Assembly (NCBI RefSeq): GCF_014648395.1
Contig: NZ_BMRA01000014.1
Span: 1 to 64,000 of the forward strand
Origin: Micromonospora fulviviridis
GTDB lineage: Bacteria; Actinomycetota; Actinomycetes; Mycobacteriales; Micromonosporaceae
Length of the DNA stretch: 64,000 bases
Reading direction: 5' to 3'
In this document: in pieces, positions 6,593 through 39,286 of the stretch
Position numbering within the stretch: the first letter of the stretch is position 1
How the letters are laid out: every line of letters starts with the position of its first letter
Translations under genes and position numbers: made by a program
Notes under the pieces: model-generated
What the model was told of the DNA's origin: nothing
Seen by the model: the letters and a program-made list of their open reading frames with translations, nothing else
The model's database searches: none

Positions 6593-7813
6593 TCAGCGCG
6601 GGCGGGTGAGGGTGAGCACGGCGGTGAGGGAGAGGGCGGCGGCCGCGGACAGCACGACGGCCATCGGCACGGCGCTGCCCTCGCCGCCCAGGCCGACCAG
6701 GGGCGCGGCGAGCGCGCCGACCACCGACTGGACGCCGCCCAGCAGCGCCGCGGCCGTGCCGGCGTGCCGGGCGTGCGTGTCCAGCGCCAGCGCCGTGCTG
6801 TTCGGCGTCACCATGCCCAGCGAGCCGACGAAGGCGAACAGCGTCACCGCGACCACGGCGAGGCTGCCGGCGAGCGCCCCGGTGAGCACGCCGGCCGCGG
6901 CCACCATGCCGACCACGAGCGCGGTGACCAGCAGCCGGCGCGGGTTGAACCGGTCGAGCAGGCGGGCGTTCGCCTGCCCGGTGGCCACCAGTGCGAGAGC
7001 GTTGAGCCCGAAGACCAGGCTGAACGCCACCGCGGAGACGCCGAAGACGTCCTGGAACACGAAGGACGACCCGGAGATGTACGCGAACAGCCCGGCGAAG
7101 GCGAAGCCCTGGGTCAGCGCGTACCCGAGGTAGACCCGGTCGGCGACCAGCGACCGCATGGTCCGTGCGGTGGCGCCCAGGCCGCCGGTGCTGCGGCGCT
7201 CGGCCGGCAGCGTCTCCGGCAGGCGCCGGGCGACCGCGACGGTGAGCAGCAGCCCGATGGCGGCCAGGGCCAGGAAGACCGCCCGCCAGTCACCGAAGCG
7301 CAGCACCAGGCTGCCCACGCTCGGCGCGGCCACCGGCGCGACTCCGAAGACCAGGGTGAGCCGGGAGAAGTACTTCGCGGCCTCGCGGCCGGAGTAGAGG
7401 TCGCGGACCACGGCCCGGGCGACCACCACCCCCATGCCGCCGGCCAGGCCCTGGGCGAACCGCGCGGCGGCCAGCATCGGCGCGCTCGGCGCCGCGGCGC
7501 AGGCGAGCGCGAGCAGGGTGTACGCGACGACGCCGACCAGCACGGGGCGCCGCCGCCCCCACCGGTCGCTGAGCGGGCCGGTGACGAACTGGCCGACGGC
7601 GAGGCCGATCAGGCAGGTGGTGAGGGAGAGCTGGATGCCGGCCTGGTCGGCGCCGAGGTCGCGGGCCATCGCCGGGAACGCCGGGAGGTACATGTCCAGC
7701 GAGAGCGGACCGATCGCGGTGAGCGTGCCGAGCAGCACCAGCAGCGTCGCGCCACCCGTCGCCGCGGGCGGGTGGACGGTCGGGCGCGCGGCGGTCCGCA
7801 CGGTCTGGCTCAC
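6593..7813 (-). CDS. Bcr/CflA-type multidrug efflux MFS transporter
   Basis: A 406-residue integral membrane protein with about 12 hydrophobic segments, a drug:proton antiporter of the DHA1 (Bcr/CflA) type. The loop 2-3 motif GPLSDRWGRRRP is present near residue 75-90, and the first helix carries SLDMYLPAFP, typical of Bcr/CflA exporters. It starts with GTG at 7813, with AGGGGG about 6 nt upstream. It is divergent from a MarR-family regulator, with a palindrome in the 81-nt gap, the classic arrangement of a regulator controlling an efflux pump. The drug exported cannot be inferred. Confidence 0.9.
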   Translation of the reverse strand: MSQTVRTAARPTVHPPAATGGATLLVLLGTLTAIGPLSLDMYLPAFPAMARDLGADQAGIQLSLTTCLIGLAVGQFVTGPLSDRWGRRRPVLVGVVAYTLLALACAAAPSAPMLAAARFAQGLAGGMGVVVARAVVRDLYSGREAAKYFSRLTLVFGVAPVAAPSVGSLVLRFGDWRAVFLALAAIGLLLTVAVARRLPETLPAERRSTGGLGATARTMRSLVADRVYLGYALTQGFAFAGLFAYISGSSFVFQDVFGVSAVAFSLVFGLNALALVATGQANARLLDRFNPRRLLVTALVVGMVAAAGVLTGALAGSLAVVAVTLFAFVGSLGMVTPNSTALALDTHARHAGTAAALLGGVQSVVGALAAPLVGLGGEGSAVPMAVVLSAAAALSLTAVLTLTRPR

Positions 7814-7850
7814 GAGGTTCCCCCTGAGGTCGGTGATCTCCGGGTAACCT

Positions 7851-7870
7851 TAGCTCTGCACTCAGAACTA
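7851..7870. promoter_or_regulatory. Candidate MarR operator
   Basis: TAGCTCTG-CACT-CAGAACTA is a 20-bp inverted repeat with one mismatch, lying between the divergent exporter and MarR starts. The MarR family binds palindromes of about this size in its own promoter. Confidence 0.5.
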
Positions 7871-7894
7871 TTGCGATGTGAAGAAGGTGACTCC

Positions 7895-8341
7895 GTGGCG
7901 AGTGAAGAACCCGTCGCGCGGTTCGGCGCCGTCGTGGGGGAGCTGCACCGGCTGCTGCGCCGCAGGACCGTCGCCCGGGCCGACCGGGACGCCCTGCCCG
8001 AGGCGCAGGTGGAGCTGCTGCACCTGGTCCGCGCCGAGCCGGGGATCAGCGGCAAGGAGGTCGCGCGGCGGCTGGGCACCGCACCGAACACGGTCAGCAC
8101 CCTGGTCCGCGACCTCACCGACGCCGGGCTGCTGGCCCGCGACCGCGACCCGGGCGATCGCCGGGTCGCGCGGCTCACCCTCACCGACGCCGCCCGCACC
8201 CGGATGGCCGACTACGCGGCCCACCGCAGCGCACTGCTCACCGAGGCCCTGGCCACCCTCGACCCGCCGGCCCGCGACGCGATCCTCGCCGCCGCCCCGC
8301 ACCTCGACGCCCTCCTCGCCGCCCTGCGCGGCCGCCCCTGA
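7895..8341 (+). CDS. MarR-family transcriptional regulator
   Basis: A 148-residue winged-helix regulator. The central region carries the HTH (GISGKEVARRLGTAPNTVS, about residues 50-68) and the wing signature RDPGDRRVARLTLT, with helical dimerisation ends. I chose GTG at 7895 because AAGAAGG lies 5-7 nt upstream and MarR homology begins soon after. Being divergent from the Bcr/CflA exporter with a palindrome between them, it most likely represses both genes and is released by a small ligand, which is unknown. Confidence 0.88.
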   Translation: MASEEPVARFGAVVGELHRLLRRRTVARADRDALPEAQVELLHLVRAEPGISGKEVARRLGTAPNTVSTLVRDLTDAGLLARDRDPGDRRVARLTLTDAARTRMADYAAHRSALLTEALATLDPPARDAILAAAPHLDALLAALRGRP

Positions 8342-8356
8342 CCCGCGCCCGGGCCG

Positions 8357-9187
8357 TCAGGCGGCGCCGTCGAGCTCGGCGTAGCCGCGGCGGGCCGCGA
8401 TGAGGCCGGGCCGGGCGCCGAACGGCGACTCGGCGGCCACCCGCTCGGGCGGGGCGCTGCCGGTGTGGCCGGCCCGGATGAGCCAGGCCTGCTGGGCGAG
8501 CTGGGCGTGCTGGGCCCGGACGAACTCCACGTCGACCGGCTCGCCGTGCCCCGGCACCACCACCGTGGCCGGCGTGGTCAACCGGAGCAGCGCGGCCACC
8601 GCGTCCGGCCACTGCACCGGGTACGACTCCTCGAAGGCCGGCGGCCCGCTCTGCTCCACCAGGTCGCCGGCGACCAGCACGTCCGCGTCCGGCACGTGCA
8701 CCACGAGGTCGGCGTCGGTGTGCCCGTGCCCGGGGTGGTGCAGCACCACCCGCCGGCCGCCCACGTCGAGCACCGCCTCGCCCTGCACCGGGTGGGTCGG
8801 GGCCAGCAGCTCCGTCCGGGCCAGCTCGGCGGCGAGCGCCGGCTGCTCCGTACGCATCTCCTCGGCCGCGGCCCGGCGCAGCTCGTCGGGGTGGTCGCGG
8901 AGCACCGCCGCGGCCTGGGCGTGCGCGTACACCGGGCGGGGCGGGTCGGCGGCCAGCGTGGCGTTCCCGAAGCAGTGGTCGAAGTGGTGGTGGGTGTTGA
9001 CGATCGTCCACGGATGCGGGGTGACCGCCCGAGCCGCCTCGGCCAGCTCCCGGGCCTGCCCGGCGGTGGAGAGGGTGTCCACCAGCAGCGCCGCGCCGTC
9101 GCCCACCACCAGCGTCACGTTGACGTGCAGCAGCGGGTCGCGCAGCACGTGCACGCGGTCGGCGATCTCGACGAACCGGGCGGTCAT
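8357..9187 (-). CDS. Metallo-beta-lactamase-fold hydrolase
   Basis: A 276-residue MBL-fold protein. The zinc motif HHHFDH is near residues 66-71, the later His in PGHGHTD near 153, the Asp in VAGDLVEQ near 170 and the last His in VVPGHGEP, so a full di-metal site is present. There is no signal peptide, so it is probably cytosolic. Its ATG overlaps the stop of the upstream thioesterase gene (ATGA), indicating a two-gene operon and translational coupling. Close relatives are annotated only as MBL-fold hydrolases; glyoxalase II-like or lactonase activity is possible, but the partner thioesterase hints at thioester or acyl substrates. Confidence 0.85.
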   Translation of the reverse strand: MTARFVEIADRVHVLRDPLLHVNVTLVVGDGAALLVDTLSTAGQARELAEAARAVTPHPWTIVNTHHHFDHCFGNATLAADPPRPVYAHAQAAAVLRDHPDELRRAAAEEMRTEQPALAAELARTELLAPTHPVQGEAVLDVGGRRVVLHHPGHGHTDADLVVHVPDADVLVAGDLVEQSGPPAFEESYPVQWPDAVAALLRLTTPATVVVPGHGEPVDVEFVRAQHAQLAQQAWLIRAGHTGSAPPERVAAESPFGARPGLIAARRGYAELDGAA

Positions 9188-10951: not shown

Positions 10952-12648
10952 CCCGGCCGGCCGCGGTCGGTCCGCCGGGCGGCGTGCGCCCGCGCGGTCA
11001 GCTCCGCCGCCAGCTCCCACGCCTCGGCCAGGTCCCGGTCCGGCGCCGCCGCGCCCGAACCGCCGGCCGTGTCCGCGTGCACGGTGGCCAGCCGCAACCG
11101 CCGCTGCGCCGGCCCCTGGGTCACCCGCACGCTCTGGATCCGGGCGTACGGCACCAGCGTCAACCGGCGGGTGAGCAGCCCGGACCGGGCCACGAAGACG
11201 CGCTCGTCCAGGCCGGTGCCGACCCTCGCCCGGCTCAGCGGGCGCAGCCAGCGGGCCCGCCGGGGCGGCGGCGTGTCGGGCAGCGCCGCCAGCCGTACGC
11301 CGGGAAGCACCTCCGCGACGACCAGCTCGCCGGTGGGCGCGTCGCCGACCGGCAGCAGCCGGTCCGGGCGGTTCCGGTCGTCCGGCTCGGCGGCGGAGTA
11401 GCCGGCCACCTCCAGCCGCAGGCGCAGCCAGCCCTTCATCCGCCAGAGGAGCGGCCAGGTCACCCCGACGGTCTGCACCCGGTGCAGCGGCACGGTCTGC
11501 ACCCTGGTCTCCAGCAGCCCGTTGCGTACCCGCAGCGTGTCGCCGTCCCGGTCCAGCCGGAAGCTCCAGTCGTCGAGCACCCGGCGCACGGGTTGCAGCA
11601 CCACGCCTGCCATGGCGGTCAGCGTGCTGGCCACCGCGATGAACGACCAGGACCCCTCGGAGACGAACTGCGCCACCACGAACGCCAGGCCGAACGGGAG
11701 CAGGAACGCCTGCGGGGTGAGTAGTTGGCTGACCAGCAGGTCCTGGTTGCGGACGCTGTGCAGCCGGCGCCCGGCCGGGACCGGCGCGGGCGGTGCGCCG
11801 GCGGCGGGCGGGGCGGCCTCGGGGACGCCGCCGGTCACGGGGGCGCGGCCGGCCACGGCGAGCAGCCGGTGCCGCAGCGCGGTCGCCTCGGCCACGCTCA
11901 GGTACGCCAGCGGCGCCTCGGTCTTGCCCCCGCCGACCACCTCCAGCCGCAGCTCGGCCAGCCCGGTGAGCTGCGCGAGCAGCGGGCGGACCACCTCCAC
12001 CGCCTGCAACCGCTCCAGCGGGATGGCCCGGGTGCGCCGCCAGAGCAGCCCCTCGTGCACCCGCAGCTCACGGCCCACCACGTGGTAGCCGGTGTTCCAC
12101 CAGCTGACCACCGAGAGCACGGTGGCGCCGAGGACGAAGACCGCGACCAGCACGGCGAACCAGCCGAAGCCGACCCGGGACAGCGTCGACCAGGAGAGCC
12201 CGGCGATCACCACGACCAGCGACTTCGCGCCGTGCAGCGCGGGGCTCAGCGGGTGCAGCCGCCGCCGCGGCTCCTCACCGGCCGGCGCGGGCACTCCCGG
12301 CCCGCCCGGGCCGGGCGGTCCCCAGGGACCGGGTCCGGCCGGTGCGGGATGTCCCGCCCCGGGCCAGGGCGGCGCGGGGTGGCCGTAGCCGGGTGGGGGC
12401 GCGGGGTGGCCGTACCCCGGCCAGGGTCCGCCCGGGGCGGCGGGGCCGGACGGGTGGCCGTACCCGGGCCAGGGTCCGCCCGGGGTGGCCGGGCCGGGCG
12501 GGTGGGCCTGGCCGGGCTGCGGTGGCCACGGGTGGCCGTTCCGTGTCGGCTCGGCACCGGCGGGCGGCGGCGGTGCGGCGGGCGGGCCGTCGGCGGGCTG
12601 GTGCGGCGGCGGGGCGCCGGGCTCCGGCTCGGCCGGGCCGGAGCTCAC
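10948..12648 (-). CDS. Large bPH2 (DUF304) membrane protein, YdbT-like
   Basis: A 566-residue protein. Its first about 135 residues are Pro/Gly-rich with imperfect repeats of the type PGGPWPGYGHP. Paired hydrophobic segments alternate with bPH2 (bacterial pleckstrin-homology-like) domains; I count three, marked by phrases such as RTRAIPLERLQAVEV, TRVQTVPLHRVQTVGV and RRLTLVPYARIQSVRV. This is the YdbT arrangement. The GTG start at 12648 overlaps the stop of the upstream bPH2 gene (GTGA), so the two are translationally coupled. In Bacillus the ydbST pair contributes to resistance against membrane-active peptides; a comparable membrane-protection role here is inference. Confidence 0.85.
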   Translation of the reverse strand: MSSGPAEPEPGAPPPHQPADGPPAAPPPPAGAEPTRNGHPWPPQPGQAHPPGPATPGGPWPGYGHPSGPAAPGGPWPGYGHPAPPPGYGHPAPPWPGAGHPAPAGPGPWGPPGPGGPGVPAPAGEEPRRRLHPLSPALHGAKSLVVVIAGLSWSTLSRVGFGWFAVLVAVFVLGATVLSVVSWWNTGYHVVGRELRVHEGLLWRRTRAIPLERLQAVEVVRPLLAQLTGLAELRLEVVGGGKTEAPLAYLSVAEATALRHRLLAVAGRAPVTGGVPEAAPPAAGAPPAPVPAGRRLHSVRNQDLLVSQLLTPQAFLLPFGLAFVVAQFVSEGSWSFIAVASTLTAMAGVVLQPVRRVLDDWSFRLDRDGDTLRVRNGLLETRVQTVPLHRVQTVGVTWPLLWRMKGWLRLRLEVAGYSAAEPDDRNRPDRLLPVGDAPTGELVVAEVLPGVRLAALPDTPPPRRARWLRPLSRARVGTGLDERVFVARSGLLTRRLTLVPYARIQSVRVTQGPAQRRLRLATVHADTAGGSGAAAPDRDLAEAWELAAELTARAHAARRTDRGRPG

Positions 12649-34499: not shown

Positions 34500-36476
34500 G
34501 TGTTCCCTACCGTCCGTGAGGTGCTCGCCCTGGTGCCGGTGCGCCATGGCGCACCGCGCCTCGTGGCGGGGGACGCGGGCCTGGACCGGCCGGTGCGCTG
34601 GGTGCACGTGGCCGAGGTGCCCGACATCGCCACCCTGCTCGGCGGGGGCGAGCTGGTGCTCACCACCGGGATCGGGCTGCCCGCCGACGACGCCGGGCTG
34701 CGCGCGTTCATCGGCGACCTGGCCGACGTCGGGGTCTCCGGGCTGGTGGTGGAGCTGGGCCGCCGCTACGTCAGCGGGGTGCCCCGGGTGATGGCGGCCG
34801 CCGCCGAGCGGCGCGGGCTGCCCCTGGTCGAGCTGCGCCGGGCCACCCCGTTCGTGCGGATCACCGAGGCGGTGCACGCGCTGATCGTGGACGCCCAGCT
34901 CACCGAGCTGCGCGCCACCGAGGAGATCCACCAGCGGTTCACCGAACTCTCGGTGGAGGGCGCCGAGCCGGCCGAGGTGGTCCGGCAGGCCGCCGAGCTG
35001 GCCGGCTGCCCCGTCGTGCTGGAGAACCTGTCCCGGCAGGTGCTCGCGTACGACCCGGCGGGGGAGAGCGCCGAGCTGCTGCTGGACGGCTGGGAGCAGC
35101 ACTCCCGGCGGATCCGGCCGGCCGGGCGTACCGCGTACGACCCGGACAGCGGGTGGCTCGTGACCACCGTCGGCGCCCGCGGCCAGGACTGGGGGCGGCT
35201 GCTGCTGCGCTGGCCGGCCGGCACCGAGCTGACGACCGGCCGGACACCGCCCGCCCGGGACCACGCCGCCGCCGACGAGGCGGTCGCGACCACGGCGGGA
35301 CGGGACGCCGCCGAGCCGGTGACCACCGCTCTCGGCGCGGCCCGTCCCGGGCGGCCGTCCGACGACGACCGCACCGAACCGGCCTCCGCCGACGGGGGCC
35401 CGTCACCGGTTACGCCCACCCGCCCGTCCGCCGTGACCGGTCCGCCCACCCGGCTCACCATCCTGATCGAGCGGGCCGCCTCCACCCTCGCCCTGGGCCG
35501 GCTGATCCGGCGCGACGCCGAGGGACTGGAACGGCAGATCCACCGCACCCTGCTCACCGCCCTGATCGACCACTCCCGCCCGGTGGACGAGGTGGCGCTG
35601 CGGGCCAAGGCGCTCGGCGTCACCCTGGACCGCCGGCACCTGGTCGGCGTGGTGGTCCGGCACCGGGCCGACGACCCGACCGAGGGCGGCGGGCCGGGCC
35701 CCGACGCCGGACCGGAGGCCGGCCCGGCCCGGCTGCGCGACCTCGCCGAGGCGGTCGGCCAGGCGCTGCGCGAGGCCAAGCTCACCGCGCTGACCAGCGC
35801 CGTCGACGACCAGGCGGTCGGGGCGCTGCTCGCGCTGCCCGATCCGGCGGCCGAGGAGAAGGCGCTCGCCGCGTTCGCCGCCGCGCTGCGCCGGGTACGC
35901 CTCGACGCCGACCCGGCCCGCCCTCCGGCGCCGCGCCCCGCCCGCCCCGTCGACCCGGCCGCCCGGACCGTGGCGGTCGGCGCGCTGCGGGCCGCGGATC
36001 CGGCGCCCCGCCCGCGCCCGGCCGGCCCGGCCGTGATCGTGGCGGCCGGGTCCGGGGTGGGCAGCCTGCGGGAGGCGCGCCGCTCGCTGGTCGAGGCCCG
36101 GCAGGTCGCCGAGGCGGCCCGCCGGGACCGCCGGGACCTGCCCTACTTCCGGCTGCCGCACGTCGGGCTGGCCGGCCTGCTGCACCTGCTCCGGGACGAG
36201 CCGCGGTTGCAGACCTTCGTCGAGCGGGAGCTGGGCGGGCTGCTGGCGTACGACGCCCAGCACCCCCGGGAGCAGTTGCTCGGCACCCTCCGGGCGTACC
36301 TGGAGCAGGGCCGCAACAAGTCCGCGGCGGCCGCCGCCGCACACCTCTCCCGGCCGGCCTTCTACGAGCGGCTGGCCCGCATCGGCCGCATCCTCGACGT
36401 CGACCTCGACTCCGTGGAGCAGTGCCTGTCCCTCCACGTGGCCCTGCTGGCCCTGGACGCCGTCCGCACCCCGTAA
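34500..36476 (+). CDS. PucR-family transcriptional regulator
   Basis: A 658-residue regulator. Residues 1-120 are the PucR N-terminal domain (TVREVLALVPVRHG, ELVLTTGIGLP). A low-complexity charged linker of about 70 residues follows near 240-315, with another near 470-510. The C terminus carries the PucR HTH (ARLSRPAFYERLARIG-like; here AAAHLSRPAFYERLARIG). PucR proteins sense purines or other metabolites and activate catabolic operons. GTG at 34500 is leaderless. The target is not in the immediate neighbourhood except the divergent hydrolase; the beta-amino acid genes at 43-46 kb are a conceivable but untested target. Confidence 0.85.
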   Translation: MFPTVREVLALVPVRHGAPRLVAGDAGLDRPVRWVHVAEVPDIATLLGGGELVLTTGIGLPADDAGLRAFIGDLADVGVSGLVVELGRRYVSGVPRVMAAAAERRGLPLVELRRATPFVRITEAVHALIVDAQLTELRATEEIHQRFTELSVEGAEPAEVVRQAAELAGCPVVLENLSRQVLAYDPAGESAELLLDGWEQHSRRIRPAGRTAYDPDSGWLVTTVGARGQDWGRLLLRWPAGTELTTGRTPPARDHAAADEAVATTAGRDAAEPVTTALGAARPGRPSDDDRTEPASADGGPSPVTPTRPSAVTGPPTRLTILIERAASTLALGRLIRRDAEGLERQIHRTLLTALIDHSRPVDEVALRAKALGVTLDRRHLVGVVVRHRADDPTEGGGPGPDAGPEAGPARLRDLAEAVGQALREAKLTALTSAVDDQAVGALLALPDPAAEEKALAAFAAALRRVRLDADPARPPAPRPARPVDPAARTVAVGALRAADPAPRPRPAGPAVIVAAGSGVGSLREARRSLVEARQVAEAARRDRRDLPYFRLPHVGLAGLLHLLRDEPRLQTFVERELGGLLAYDAQHPREQLLGTLRAYLEQGRNKSAAAAAAHLSRPAFYERLARIGRILDVDLDSVEQCLSLHVALLALDAVRTP

Positions 36477-36499: not shown

Positions 36500-37849
36500 T
36501 CAGGTGAGGGCGGTCAGGGCCTTGGCGTAGGGGGTGGGGACGTAGGTGGGGCCGCCGGGCGTGAAGACGTCGGAGGTGGCGGCGGCCGACCAGGCCGTGG
36601 GGGGGACCGCGTCGACCAGGGCGCGGACCACCGGGGCGTCGCGCCACTGCTCCTGCTCGGCGAGCAGGCTCAGCGCGACCACCGACTCCTCCACCTCGCC
36701 GACGCACTCGAACGGCTTGTGCCCGTCCACCCCGAGCAGCTCCCGGTAGCCGGGGATCTGGGACTCGTCGGCCAGCAGGTCGCCGCCGAAGATCGTGGTG
36801 ATCCGCTCCCGGGACATGAACGGGGCCATGGCCAGGAAGACGAACCGGCACTTCGGGCAGTCGCGGCACCAGCGCTCGCTCGCGTCGCGCAGCTTGAACG
36901 CGGCGTTGCAACTGGTCACCACGGCGTCGTAGCGGTCGGTCTCGGCGAAGAGCCGGGCGATGTGCAGCTCGGACAGCGACCGCAGCAGCGAGAAGTACGG
37001 CTCGGTGAGGCCGGCGTGCTCGGCCAGCGCCGCGCGCAGCAGCCCCTCCGCCTCGACACCCTTGGACCACTGGTGGTTGATCTCGTGGCCCTGCCAGACC
37101 AGGTTCGGGTCGGACGCCGAGCGCTCGTTGGACATCACCACCGGCCCGAGCCCGTGCAGCACGGCCGTGGCGACGGCGATCAGCGAGTTGATCGCGGTGA
37201 CCGGGATGTGCCCGTTCCGGGCGCCGGCCGCGTTGAGGTCGAACAGCACCGGGTCGATCCGCCGCCGGGCGGCCAGCGGCACCAGGTCGGACGCCTCGTT
37301 GACCGAGACGATGACGTGGTTGGGGTTGACCGAGAAGGGCACCGGGTCGAAGCCGGCCCGGCGCAGCGCCTCCAGCGTGACGATGGAGTCCTTGCCGCCG
37401 CCGACGGCCGACAGCGGCCGGCGGTCCGAGTCGTCGTACACCCGGGGCGGGGCGACCTCGCCGGCCGGCACCTCCGGGCGCAGCTCCAGCACGTGCGGCA
37501 GCTGGTTGCGGTACGCGTACTCGGCGAGGCCCTTGGTGTAGACGGCGGTGACGAGGTCGGCGGCGGCCGCGCCCAGCGGCGCCGGCAGCACCAGCCGGGG
37601 CGGCGCGGCGGCCTTGTAGTAGCTGACCCCGGCGACCACGTGCAGCAGTTCGAGGACCCGGGCGAGGGTGGCCGCGGTCTCGTCGGACACCGGCTCCGCC
37701 GGCAGGGGAAGGGTGACCACCTCGGTGAACCGCTGCTCGCCGTCGGGGCCGGTCAGGGCGTAGTCGAACAACACCTCGCCGGTGGCGAAGTCGATCGAGT
37801 AGGACGGGAAGGTGAAGGCGTCCATCCGCCGCAGCTGCTCGTTGGGCAC
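36500..37849 (-). CDS. murL: UDP-MurNAc-L-Ala-L-Glu epimerase (MurL)
   Basis: A 449-residue soluble enzyme predicted to epimerise the terminal L-Glu of UDP-MurNAc-L-Ala-L-Glu to D-Glu using ATP (AMP and PPi released). Visible: a PP-loop-like motif VGGGKDSIV near 144-152, and a cysteine cluster WCRDCPKC near 325-332 that may bind metal. GTG at 37849 is preferred since TAGTAT lies 5 nt upstream; ATG at 37825 is the alternative. It is divergent from murD2, whose L-Glu product it would use. MurL was characterised in Xanthomonas as replacing the glutamate racemase route. Assignment rests on the paired context and the recalled family signature, so an alignment is needed. Confidence 0.82.
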   Translation of the reverse strand: MPNEQLRRMDAFTFPSYSIDFATGEVLFDYALTGPDGEQRFTEVVTLPLPAEPVSDETAATLARVLELLHVVAGVSYYKAAAPPRLVLPAPLGAAAADLVTAVYTKGLAEYAYRNQLPHVLELRPEVPAGEVAPPRVYDDSDRRPLSAVGGGKDSIVTLEALRRAGFDPVPFSVNPNHVIVSVNEASDLVPLAARRRIDPVLFDLNAAGARNGHIPVTAINSLIAVATAVLHGLGPVVMSNERSASDPNLVWQGHEINHQWSKGVEAEGLLRAALAEHAGLTEPYFSLLRSLSELHIARLFAETDRYDAVVTSCNAAFKLRDASERWCRDCPKCRFVFLAMAPFMSRERITTIFGGDLLADESQIPGYRELLGVDGHKPFECVGEVEESVVALSLLAEQEQWRDAPVVRALVDAVPPTAWSAAATSDVFTPGGPTYVPTPYAKALTALT

Positions 37850-37854
37850 ACGCC

Positions 37855-37860
37855 ATACTA
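37855..37860 (-). promoter_or_regulatory. Candidate -10 for murL
   Basis: TAGTAT in minus-strand sense, 5 nt before the GTG at 37849, suggests a leaderless murL mRNA; the overlapping plus-strand TACTA is the mirror half. Confidence 0.4.
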
Positions 37861-37939
37861 GGCCCTGGTCTGTCCTGCCGTGTCCGGCTGTGCCGGACCG
37901 CACCCGCCGAACCGCCGACCCGAACCCCGAGGAGAGCCC

Positions 37940-39286
37940 GTGCGCCTGTCTGACCTGCGCGGACGTCATGTCGCCGTCTGGGGCGCCGGCCGGGAGGGCC
38001 GGGCCGCGGTGATCGCGATCGCCGCGCACGGCCCGGCCGCCCTGGTGGCCGTCGACGACAGCGCGAACTTCCTCACCCTGCCCTGGGAGGGTCCGCTCGC
38101 CGCGGCCGCGCCGCTGGTGACGGGGGAGGACGGTTTCGCCCGGCTGGCCGCCGCCGACGTGGTGGTCCGCTCGCCCGGGGTGCCGAACACCCACCCGTGG
38201 ATGGTGGAGCTGCGCCGCCGGGCCGTCCCGGTCACCCAGGGCAGCGCGCTCTGGATGGCCGACCACGCGGACCGGACCGTCGGGGTGACCGGCAGCAAGG
38301 GCAAGAGCACCACCTCCAGCCTGATCAGCCACCTGCTCACCGCGATGGACCGGCCGAACGTCTTCGGCGGCAACATCGGCGTGCCGCTGCTCGACCTGCC
38401 CGAGGCGGAGCTGTACGTGCTGGAGCTTTCCAGCTACCAGTGCGCCGACCTGACCGACTCGCCCCGGGTGGCCGTGGTGACCGCGCTGTTCCCTGAGCAC
38501 CTCGACGCGCACGGCGGCGAGCGGGAGTACTACCGGGACAAGCTCAACCTGCTGGCGCACGGCCCACACACCGTGGTGGTGAACGGCGCCGACCCCCGGC
38601 TGGCGTTCGAACTGGGGGACCGGGCGGCGGTCCGGGCCGGCTCGTCGGACACCACCCACGTGGCCACCGGCCCGGACGGCGCCCCCTGGTTCCACCTGCG
38701 GGACACCCCGCTCTTCCCGCGCGCCGTGCTGCCCCTGGTCGGGCGGCACAACGAGGGCAACCTCTGCGTCGCCCTGGCGGTGCTCGACGCGCTCGGCGTC
38801 GACGTGGTGGCGCGCAAGGACAGCCTCGCCATCGCGGTGGCCGGGTTCCAGGGCCTCGCCCATCGGCTCACCGAGATCGCCGACCCGTCCGGGCTCACCT
38901 TCGTCGACGACACGCTGGCCACCAGCCCGTACGCGGCCATGCACGCGATCGACGCGTACGAGGGGCGGCCGTTGACCGTGATCGTCGGCGGGACGGACCG
39001 GGGGCTGGACTACACCCCGCTCCGCGACCACCTGGCCGAGCGGGAGATCACCGTGATCGGCATCCCGGACAGCGGCCCCCGGATCGTCGAGGCGCTGGCG
39101 GGGCTGCCGGCGGTGCGCACCGAGATCGCCGAGGACCTGGTCGCCGCGGTGGGGCTGGCCCGCAAGCTCACCCCGGCCGGCGGGGTGGTGCTACTCTCCC
39201 CGGCCGCGCCCAGCTACGGCCGGTTCCGCAACTTCGAGCACCGCTCCGAGGTCTTCGCGCAGGCGGTCGCCGACACCGCCCGCTGA
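37940..39286 (+). CDS. murD2: UDP-MurNAc-L-Ala--L-Glu ligase (MurD2)
   Basis: A 448-residue Mur ligase. ATP loop TGSKGKSTT near 116-124, substrate-binding LELSSYQCADL near 163 and a C-terminal Rossmann domain are present. Where MurD has a conserved DSKATN motif, this protein has VDDTLATSP, which fits the MurD2 group adding L- rather than D-glutamate. GTG at 37940 with GAGGAGAG 4 nt upstream is the start. A hairpin GTCCGG-CTGTG-CCGGAC lies in its leader at 37882-37898. It is paired with the divergent MurL-like epimerase; together they would deliver D-Glu into the stem peptide without free D-Glu. A housekeeping MurD elsewhere cannot be excluded. Confidence 0.85.
   Translation: MRLSDLRGRHVAVWGAGREGRAAVIAIAAHGPAALVAVDDSANFLTLPWEGPLAAAAPLVTGEDGFARLAAADVVVRSPGVPNTHPWMVELRRRAVPVTQGSALWMADHADRTVGVTGSKGKSTTSSLISHLLTAMDRPNVFGGNIGVPLLDLPEAELYVLELSSYQCADLTDSPRVAVVTALFPEHLDAHGGEREYYRDKLNLLAHGPHTVVVNGADPRLAFELGDRAAVRAGSSDTTHVATGPDGAPWFHLRDTPLFPRAVLPLVGRHNEGNLCVALAVLDALGVDVVARKDSLAIAVAGFQGLAHRLTEIADPSGLTFVDDTLATSPYAAMHAIDAYEGRPLTVIVGGTDRGLDYTPLRDHLAEREITVIGIPDSGPRIVEALAGLPAVRTEIAEDLVAAVGLARKLTPAGGVVLLSPAAPSYGRFRNFEHRSEVFAQAVADTAR

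Follow-up and report, generated by a model that had tools for sequence, protein, structure and literature searches.

The DNA analysed here, called the window throughout, is a 64,000-nt stretch of the Micromonospora fulviviridis genome, whose assembly comprises 6.98 Mb in 33 contigs and is rated 99.99% complete. It contains a divergent gene pair, murL and murD2, predicted to encode the epimerase and the ligase of the L-Glu route into peptidoglycan. An earlier note on this DNA had described a PP-loop protein with GGGKDS and WCRDCPKC motifs lying head-to-head with a MurD-like ligase, and both reading frames and both motifs were confirmed in the sequence. The features of the locus are as follows; positions in murD2 that correspond to E. 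coli MurD sites come from residue alignment.

36500..37825, minus strand: murL, predicted UDP-MurNAc-peptide-L-Glu epimerase (441 residues; ATG at 37825, stop at 36500)
37385..37402, minus strand: stretch encoding the PP-loop GGGKDS (residues 142-147 of MurL), which HHalign aligns with the QueC SGGxDS loop
36848..36910, minus strand: stretch encoding the four-cysteine motif SC306...WC320xxC323xKC326, which aligns with the cysteine motif of QueC
37826..37939, no strand: 114-bp intergenic region separating the divergent start codons of murL and murD2
37940..39286, plus strand: murD2, predicted L-Glu-adding MurD-like ligase (448 residues; GTG at 37940, stop at 39286)
38495..38497, plus strand: codon for Glu, at the site of D182 in E. 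coli MurD (E197 of X. oryzae MurD2)
38903..38929, plus strand: VDDTLATSP motif, with its Leu at the site of K319 in E. coli MurD
38999..39001, plus strand: codon for Arg, at the site of K348 in E. coli MurD (R358 of X. oryzae MurD2)
39209..39211, plus strand: codon for Pro, at the site of A414 in E. coli MurD (P433 of X. oryzae MurD2)

WCRDCPKC corresponds to residues 319-326 of the window MurL. The chosen GTG start of murD2 is preceded by AGGAG, and the open frame reaches further upstream, to the GTG at 37880. Both promoters presumably lie within the 114-bp intergenic region.

The predicted L-Glu pathway in the host

The window MurL matches NF041275 over model positions 6-444 of 447 (404 bits, E 6e-121), and the window MurD2 matches the MurD model TIGR01087 with 292.8 bits (cut-off 211.95). 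Since the first match is full-length with such an E value and the second is over its cut-off, the pair is beyond chance. The best solved-structure matches of MurD2 are MurD. At the protein level, the identity of MurL to its counterparts is 99% in Micromonospora sp. MA102, 91% in Micromonospora sp. ATCC 39149, and 43% in X. sacchari; for MurD2, it is 90% in ATCC 39149 and 37% in X. sacchari. The MurD2-MurL arrangement put forward in the earlier note is thus borne out by full-length family matches, by identity of ~90% to the ATCC 39149 pair, and by the specificity residues described below.

The same note had held that free D-Glu from glutamate racemase is dispensable here and had named murI and a housekeeping murD as genes that would make the pair redundant. 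Neither was found. Searches of the host genome for glutamate racemase gave 0 matches with PF01177 and 0 with TIGR00067, and the sole host MurD over the TIGR01087 cut-off is the window gene. In the host dcw cluster (locus L007), the frame of mraY runs to 11282 and that of ftsW opens at 11407, leaving no room for murD between them; MraY, FtsW, and MurC were named via matches to annotated E. coli genes, and the other dcw genes of this cluster from sequence and gene order. No D-amino-acid transaminase over cut-off was found either: two weak matches (60.9 and 38.8 bits, cut-off 277) were detected, one of which is fitted best by the aminodeoxychorismate lyase model (193 bits, under that model's 278 cut-off), while the other passes branched-chain aminotransferase cut-offs. 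MurD2/MurL is the one route to the second peptidoglycan stem residue that is visible in the host.

A survey of 150 Micromonosporaceae genomes revealed the same mutual exclusion. MurL was found in 79 and MurI (TIGR00067 over cut-off) in 70, with an overlap of 0, so that exactly one of the two is present in 149/150 genomes; the remaining genome, which is 77% complete, has neither. Within the genus, MurL is present in 16/16 genomes and MurI over cut-off in 0/16. PF01177 was discarded as a family-wide murI marker: it matches 119/150 genomes and is too broad, and TIGR00067 was therefore used. Phylum-wide, 27 of 396 genomes carry MurL, 25 of them outside Micromonosporaceae. Two species assigned to one genus differ, one having MurL/MurD2 and the other MurI with a dcw MurD, which reflects either a switch within the genus or a genus that should be split.

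The residues that govern Glu specificity were compared in 135 distinct MurD2 (113 from Micromonosporaceae) and 30 distinct canonical MurD, the latter being the best-scoring MurD fetched from MurI genomes. Rows cut by contig ends were dropped from the counts (L211 for MurL, 251 aa; L207 and L230 for MurD2, 243 aa), and sites were mapped on K-12 MurD, numbered without Met. X. oryzae MurD2 turns to D-Glu once E197 and R358 are both changed, changes of P433 and F435 leave its specificity as it is, and E. coli MurD K319T accepts L-Glu (PMC8788868). At sites 182, 319, 348, 414, and 416, the window MurD2 carries E, L, R, P, and Y, respectively. Site 348 is R in 135/135 MurD2 and K in 30/30 canonical MurD; site 319 is L or I in 135/135 MurD2 and K in 30/30 canonical MurD. 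The other sites separate the groups less sharply: site 182 is E in 116/135 MurD2, D in 18, and C in 1, compared to D in 30/30 canonical MurD, and site 414 is P in 128/135 MurD2, compared to A in 28 and G in 2 canonical MurD. E197 was accordingly rejected as a diagnostic of L-Glu use, being non-universal. The VDDTLATSP motif, which the earlier note took as the MurD2-type replacement of the DSKATN of MurD, was found at the K319 site with Leu in place of Lys; because of this Leu and of the K319T effect, it marks a site known to affect Glu chirality. A two-residue signature (loss of K319 and K348 to R) parts the 135 MurD2 from the 30 MurD without exception.

The TIGR01087 match over cut-off, which names the window ligase MurD, would also suit a conventional D-Glu-adding MurD relocated from the dcw cluster, with the PP-loop protein doing something else; X. 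sacchari MurD2 (L223, annotated murD, 7304-8740) likewise carries the name "D-glutamate ligase." Such an origin is very improbable. No D-Glu source was found in the host genome, the signature just described places all 135 MurD2 apart from the 30 MurD taken from MurI genomes, and MurL coincides with MurI in 0 of 150 genomes. Moreover, MurD2, including that of the window and that of Xanthomonas, forms one side of a 100/99 branch in a tree of 61 rows (from an earlier row set without L166, L083, and L090). The K319/K348 signature could serve to correct automatic "D-glutamate ligase" names. Still less credible is that MurL is a glutamate racemase making free D-Glu: although it stands in for MurI across the family, X. 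oryzae MurL was without Glu racemase activity in the discoverers' test, the MurD2 residues fit L-Glu, and, as weak evidence, no amino-acid racemase is among the fold-search matches listed.

The proposed pathway would proceed as follows. MurD2 would ligate L-Glu to the UDP-muramoyl-amino-acid made by MurC. MurL would then adenylate the alpha-carboxylate of this Glu with ATP, an AMP-forming step making the alpha-proton acidic, and the proton would be removed and returned on the other face. Hydrolysis of the acyl-AMP would release AMP and yield UDP-muramoyl-X-D-Glu for MurE. For relatives, both activities, the conversion of ATP to AMP, and the one-way course from L to D were shown by the discoverers (PMC8788868); the adenylation step is their proposal, and a QueC-like site is what we infer in this analysis. 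Judging by chemotaxonomy, the first stem residue in Micromonospora may be Gly rather than L-Ala.

Overall, we put the probability that the L-Glu pathway operates in this strain at roughly 93%, its activity being deduced from genes and relatives. Several points weigh against it. The window MurL misses the 700-bit cut-off of NF041275, as does every other genome with a match (79 in the family survey, 27 in that of the phylum), and it has zero Pfam domain matches even at E 10. Five MurL genomes show sub-threshold TIGR00067 matches, which we attribute to other racemase-superfamily proteins. NF041275 is an NCBIfam equivalog, a narrow Xanthomonadales MurL model on which X. sacchari MurL scores 836.5 bits; a score under the cut-off therefore places the window MurL outside the narrow membership of this model.

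Predicted fold and active site of MurL

MurL is described as ATP-requiring, AMP-forming, one-way, and without known conserved domains (PMC8788868; PMC5808125). With phmmer, MurL gave 0 matches to PDB sequences at E 1, and a MurL profile gave only 4, all weak (E 0.13-0.72) and all to TtuA / PH0300, which are PP-loop proteins. A zinc-ribbon Pfam match of one of 12 MurL (E 0.18) was taken as chance. The same 12 had no match in a PADLOC run, and among viral contigs searched for MurL, 19 stretches fit a pattern, none of which encodes a relative.

In 124 distinct MurL, including that of X. sacchari and three plasmid copies, 33 residues are invariant (columns with >=90% of rows aligned). These include G143, G144, D146, and S147 of the PP-loop, so that the PP-loop residues on which the earlier note had made its reading depend are present in 124/124. 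Further invariants are H206, N233, E234, H251, K255, C306, C320, C323, C326, E373, and C374. The window GGGKDS aligns with SGGLDS, with G replacing the first S of SGGxDS (S in 1/124 MurL). C306, C320, C323, and C326 are likely to form a metal site as in QueC, judging by the motif. Their spacing in the window MurL is C(x)13CxxCxxC; the QueC-family zinc motif C(x)8CxxCxxC, as written, does not match it.

A profile of 126 distinct MurL (an earlier row set) was compared using HHalign to 25 QueC of the 26 top PF06508 loci. The probability was 81.9 (E 1.1e-5) in local and 88.2 (E 3.4e-7) in global mode, and the alignment pairs the PP-loops and the CxxCxxC ends collinearly. Reversed QueC gave 0.2 and 0.1, and 20/20 column shuffles gave <=0.8. 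When an AlphaFold model of MurL was searched with Foldseek, the first match was QatC (E 0.011, probability 0.96) in a list that also held many unrelated Rossmann-type proteins. Superposition on the Foldseek top chains ranked QatC first (Z 15.3, 314 residues, rmsd (root-mean-square deviation) 4.8, over model residues 1-402), followed by QueC (Z 9.2 and 9.1, 179 and 192 residues, rmsd 3.6) and Cap9 (Z 8.6, 167 residues, rmsd 3.4); these three proteins are the first five rows of the Z ranking. Next came argininosuccinate synthase, NAD synthetase, and TtuA, which are PP-loop enzymes, at Z 6.6 to 5.5, and then unrelated Rossmann-type rows.

These results suggest that MurL is probably a remote member of the QueC/QatC/Cap9 superfamily, a carboxylate-activating PP-loop enzyme turned epimerase. 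With comparable confidence, we expect catalysis at a PP-loop site that resembles that of QueC and is held in place by a Cys4 metal site. A number of findings speak against this assignment. At E 10, none of 12 MurL matched PF06508 (the QueC family); we therefore call MurL a remote QueC-like relative and not a PF06508 member. The QueC rows were selected for holding both motifs, and a control comparison of MurL to canonical MurD reached probability 5.4 and E 0.0071 in local mode, so that an E value of ~0.0071 is uninformative here. The AlphaFold model is moderate (pLDDT 70.5, pTM 0.71); its input had 44 rows, in which every row after the first is 82-94% identical to that one, and residues 304-313, which hold C306, have pLDDT <50. 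A core-only model (residues 126-417) reached only pLDDT 52 and pTM 0.53, and Foldseek gave 0 matches at E 0.001.

The moderate model, the failure of the core-only model, and the lack of a Pfam match could instead mean that the likeness to QueC reflects a shared Rossmann-type core only, with ATP chemistry of another kind; unrelated Rossmann-type rows do reach Z ~5.5, and models without a clear match typically have a best Z of 7 to 8. We consider this unlikely, although it retains an appreciable chance. Both QueC hallmark motifs fall collinearly in one HHalign alignment that the controls did not reproduce; QatC, QueC, and Cap9 fill the first five rows; and the AMP product fits an ATP pyrophosphatase (PMC8788868).

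A QueC-like PP-loop enzyme would explain the conversion of ATP to AMP, and adenylation used only to acidify C-alpha would, if true, explain both this cost and the one-way reaction. Carboxylate activation by QueC passes through an adenylate. Two ATP-dependent steps are involved (PMC13329287). No link of MurL to QueC or to PP-loop proteins was found in the literature within the collection searched: MurL and QueC do not occur together as whole words in any of its papers, the main text of the 2026 QueC-family survey has no MurL, epimerase, or peptidoglycan (PMC13329287), a word search of the QatC structure paper gave neither MurL nor epimerase (PMC13279940), and a co-mention of "murl" and "PP-loop" in PMC2922099 was rejected, "murl" there being Mur_ligase. 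The discoverers called MurL domain-less and its mechanism unclear; the fold and active-site prediction supplies residues to mutate.

Three MurL homologues, identified by sequence match, are carried by plasmids of Pseudonocardia:

L220:14968-16368: MurL homologue of pPaSha1
L221:14968-16377: MurL homologue of pLS1-1
L222:14968-16362: MurL homologue of pFRP1-2

They are 43-49% identical to the window MurL, keep the invariant residues, and group with Micromonosporaceae MurL (SH-aLRT 100). No MurD match was found within ~15 kb of any of the three, and Pseudonocardia is absent among the 25 of 29 plasmid MurD matches listed. The next gene converges on MurL in all three plasmids and, in pPaSha1, encodes an nSTAND1-WD40 protein. 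Plasmid MurL beside an nSTAND1-WD40 gene may represent a second repurposing, outside cell-wall synthesis. QatC, which would be the closest solved relative of MurL, is an anti-phage protein.

Arrangement and history of the pair

The divergent arrangement is present in 79/80 named loci of Micromonospora, Salinispora, Verrucosispora, and other Micromonosporaceae; the 80th (L127) starts 176 bases before murL, at a contig end, and in one locus (L179) the divergent MurD2 is split into two pieces. Among the 79 family genomes with MurL, the pair is divergent in 51, co-directional in 4, and unlinked in 23, and one genome (G037) has no MurD row. In this last genome (locus L116), tblastn finds an adjoining divergent MurD2 that is ~50 residues longer; it spans 501 codons, compared to 447 in the window MurD2, is missing from the hidden Markov model list at E 1e-45, and seems from its sequence to carry an insertion. 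Of the 23 unlinked MurD2, 18 were fetched with ~4 kb flanks, and neither murL nor any tested dcw gene adjoins in these 18 (0/18). Outside the family, 20 of the 25 MurL genomes were fetched, and murL lies directly upstream of murD2 on one strand in 20/20.

In two genomes, the pair occupies the murD slot of the dcw cluster, in the order mraY-murL-murD2-ftsW: one belongs to this family (L112; 69% complete), where ~2 kb of extra sequence separates murD2 from ftsW, and the other to another family (L226, genome G227). The divergent pair therefore looks derived. In the 61-row tree, the 100/99 branch parts MurD2, with X. sacchari inside, from canonical MurD, and the family's MurD2 forms one 100/99 group. 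This grouping speaks against an origin of MurD2 from the dcw murD of the family itself; the root is weak because of a long-branch warning and because E. coli is the only outgroup. We infer that murL-murD2 arrived as an operon, took over the site of murD, subsequently moved out of the dcw cluster, and was flipped around in the Micromonospora lineage; the direction in which we read these events is deduced. The family seems to show the switch in stages, from the dcw murD slot to a position outside dcw and then to divergent or unlinked genes, in a presumed order.

Next to the window pair, a gene for a PucR-type regulator (34515-36476, plus strand) points toward the murL stop, and a gene for a beta-lactamase-family protein (PF00144; 33113-34387, minus strand) lies beyond it. 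Neither has an evident link to murL/murD2.

Comparison with known systems

The MurD2/MurL pathway was described for Xanthomonas oryzae, and Micromonospora sp. and Salinispora tropica orthologues were confirmed in vitro (Feng et al. 2017, as cited in PMC8788868). The earlier note's statement that the chemistry is established in Xanthomonas holds, but Xanthomonas is not the sole source; in vitro proof in Micromonospora and Salinispora makes that first reading stronger, but less new, than supposed. Micromonospora, Actinoplanes, Verrucosispora, and Salinispora are named as users of the pathway, and so is Micromonospora sp. ATCC 39149 (PMC8788868). The pathway is already known for the genus, where this locus is ordinary, and since it was published for Micromonospora too, the locus is a confirmation. 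What is added is the MurL fold prediction, the MurD2 residue signature, and the dcw history.

The window pair is like the published MurD2/MurL systems in protein families, specificity residues, and lack of D-Glu genes. It differs in arrangement from X. sacchari, where murL precedes murD2 on one strand and overlaps it, while the window genes are divergent. With QueC, QatC, and Cap9 (PF06508), MurL shares the PP-loop, a cysteine cluster ending in CxxCxxC, and, in the model, the same core (QueC motifs from PMC13329287); in contrast to that family, it has no PF06508 match, a longer Cys spacing, and isomerization as the outcome. The canonical MurI and MurD route delivers the same product to MurE as MurD2/MurL, but it takes D-Glu in free form and relies on a MurD that has both K319 and K348 and that, in the loci seen, is encoded between mraY and ftsW.

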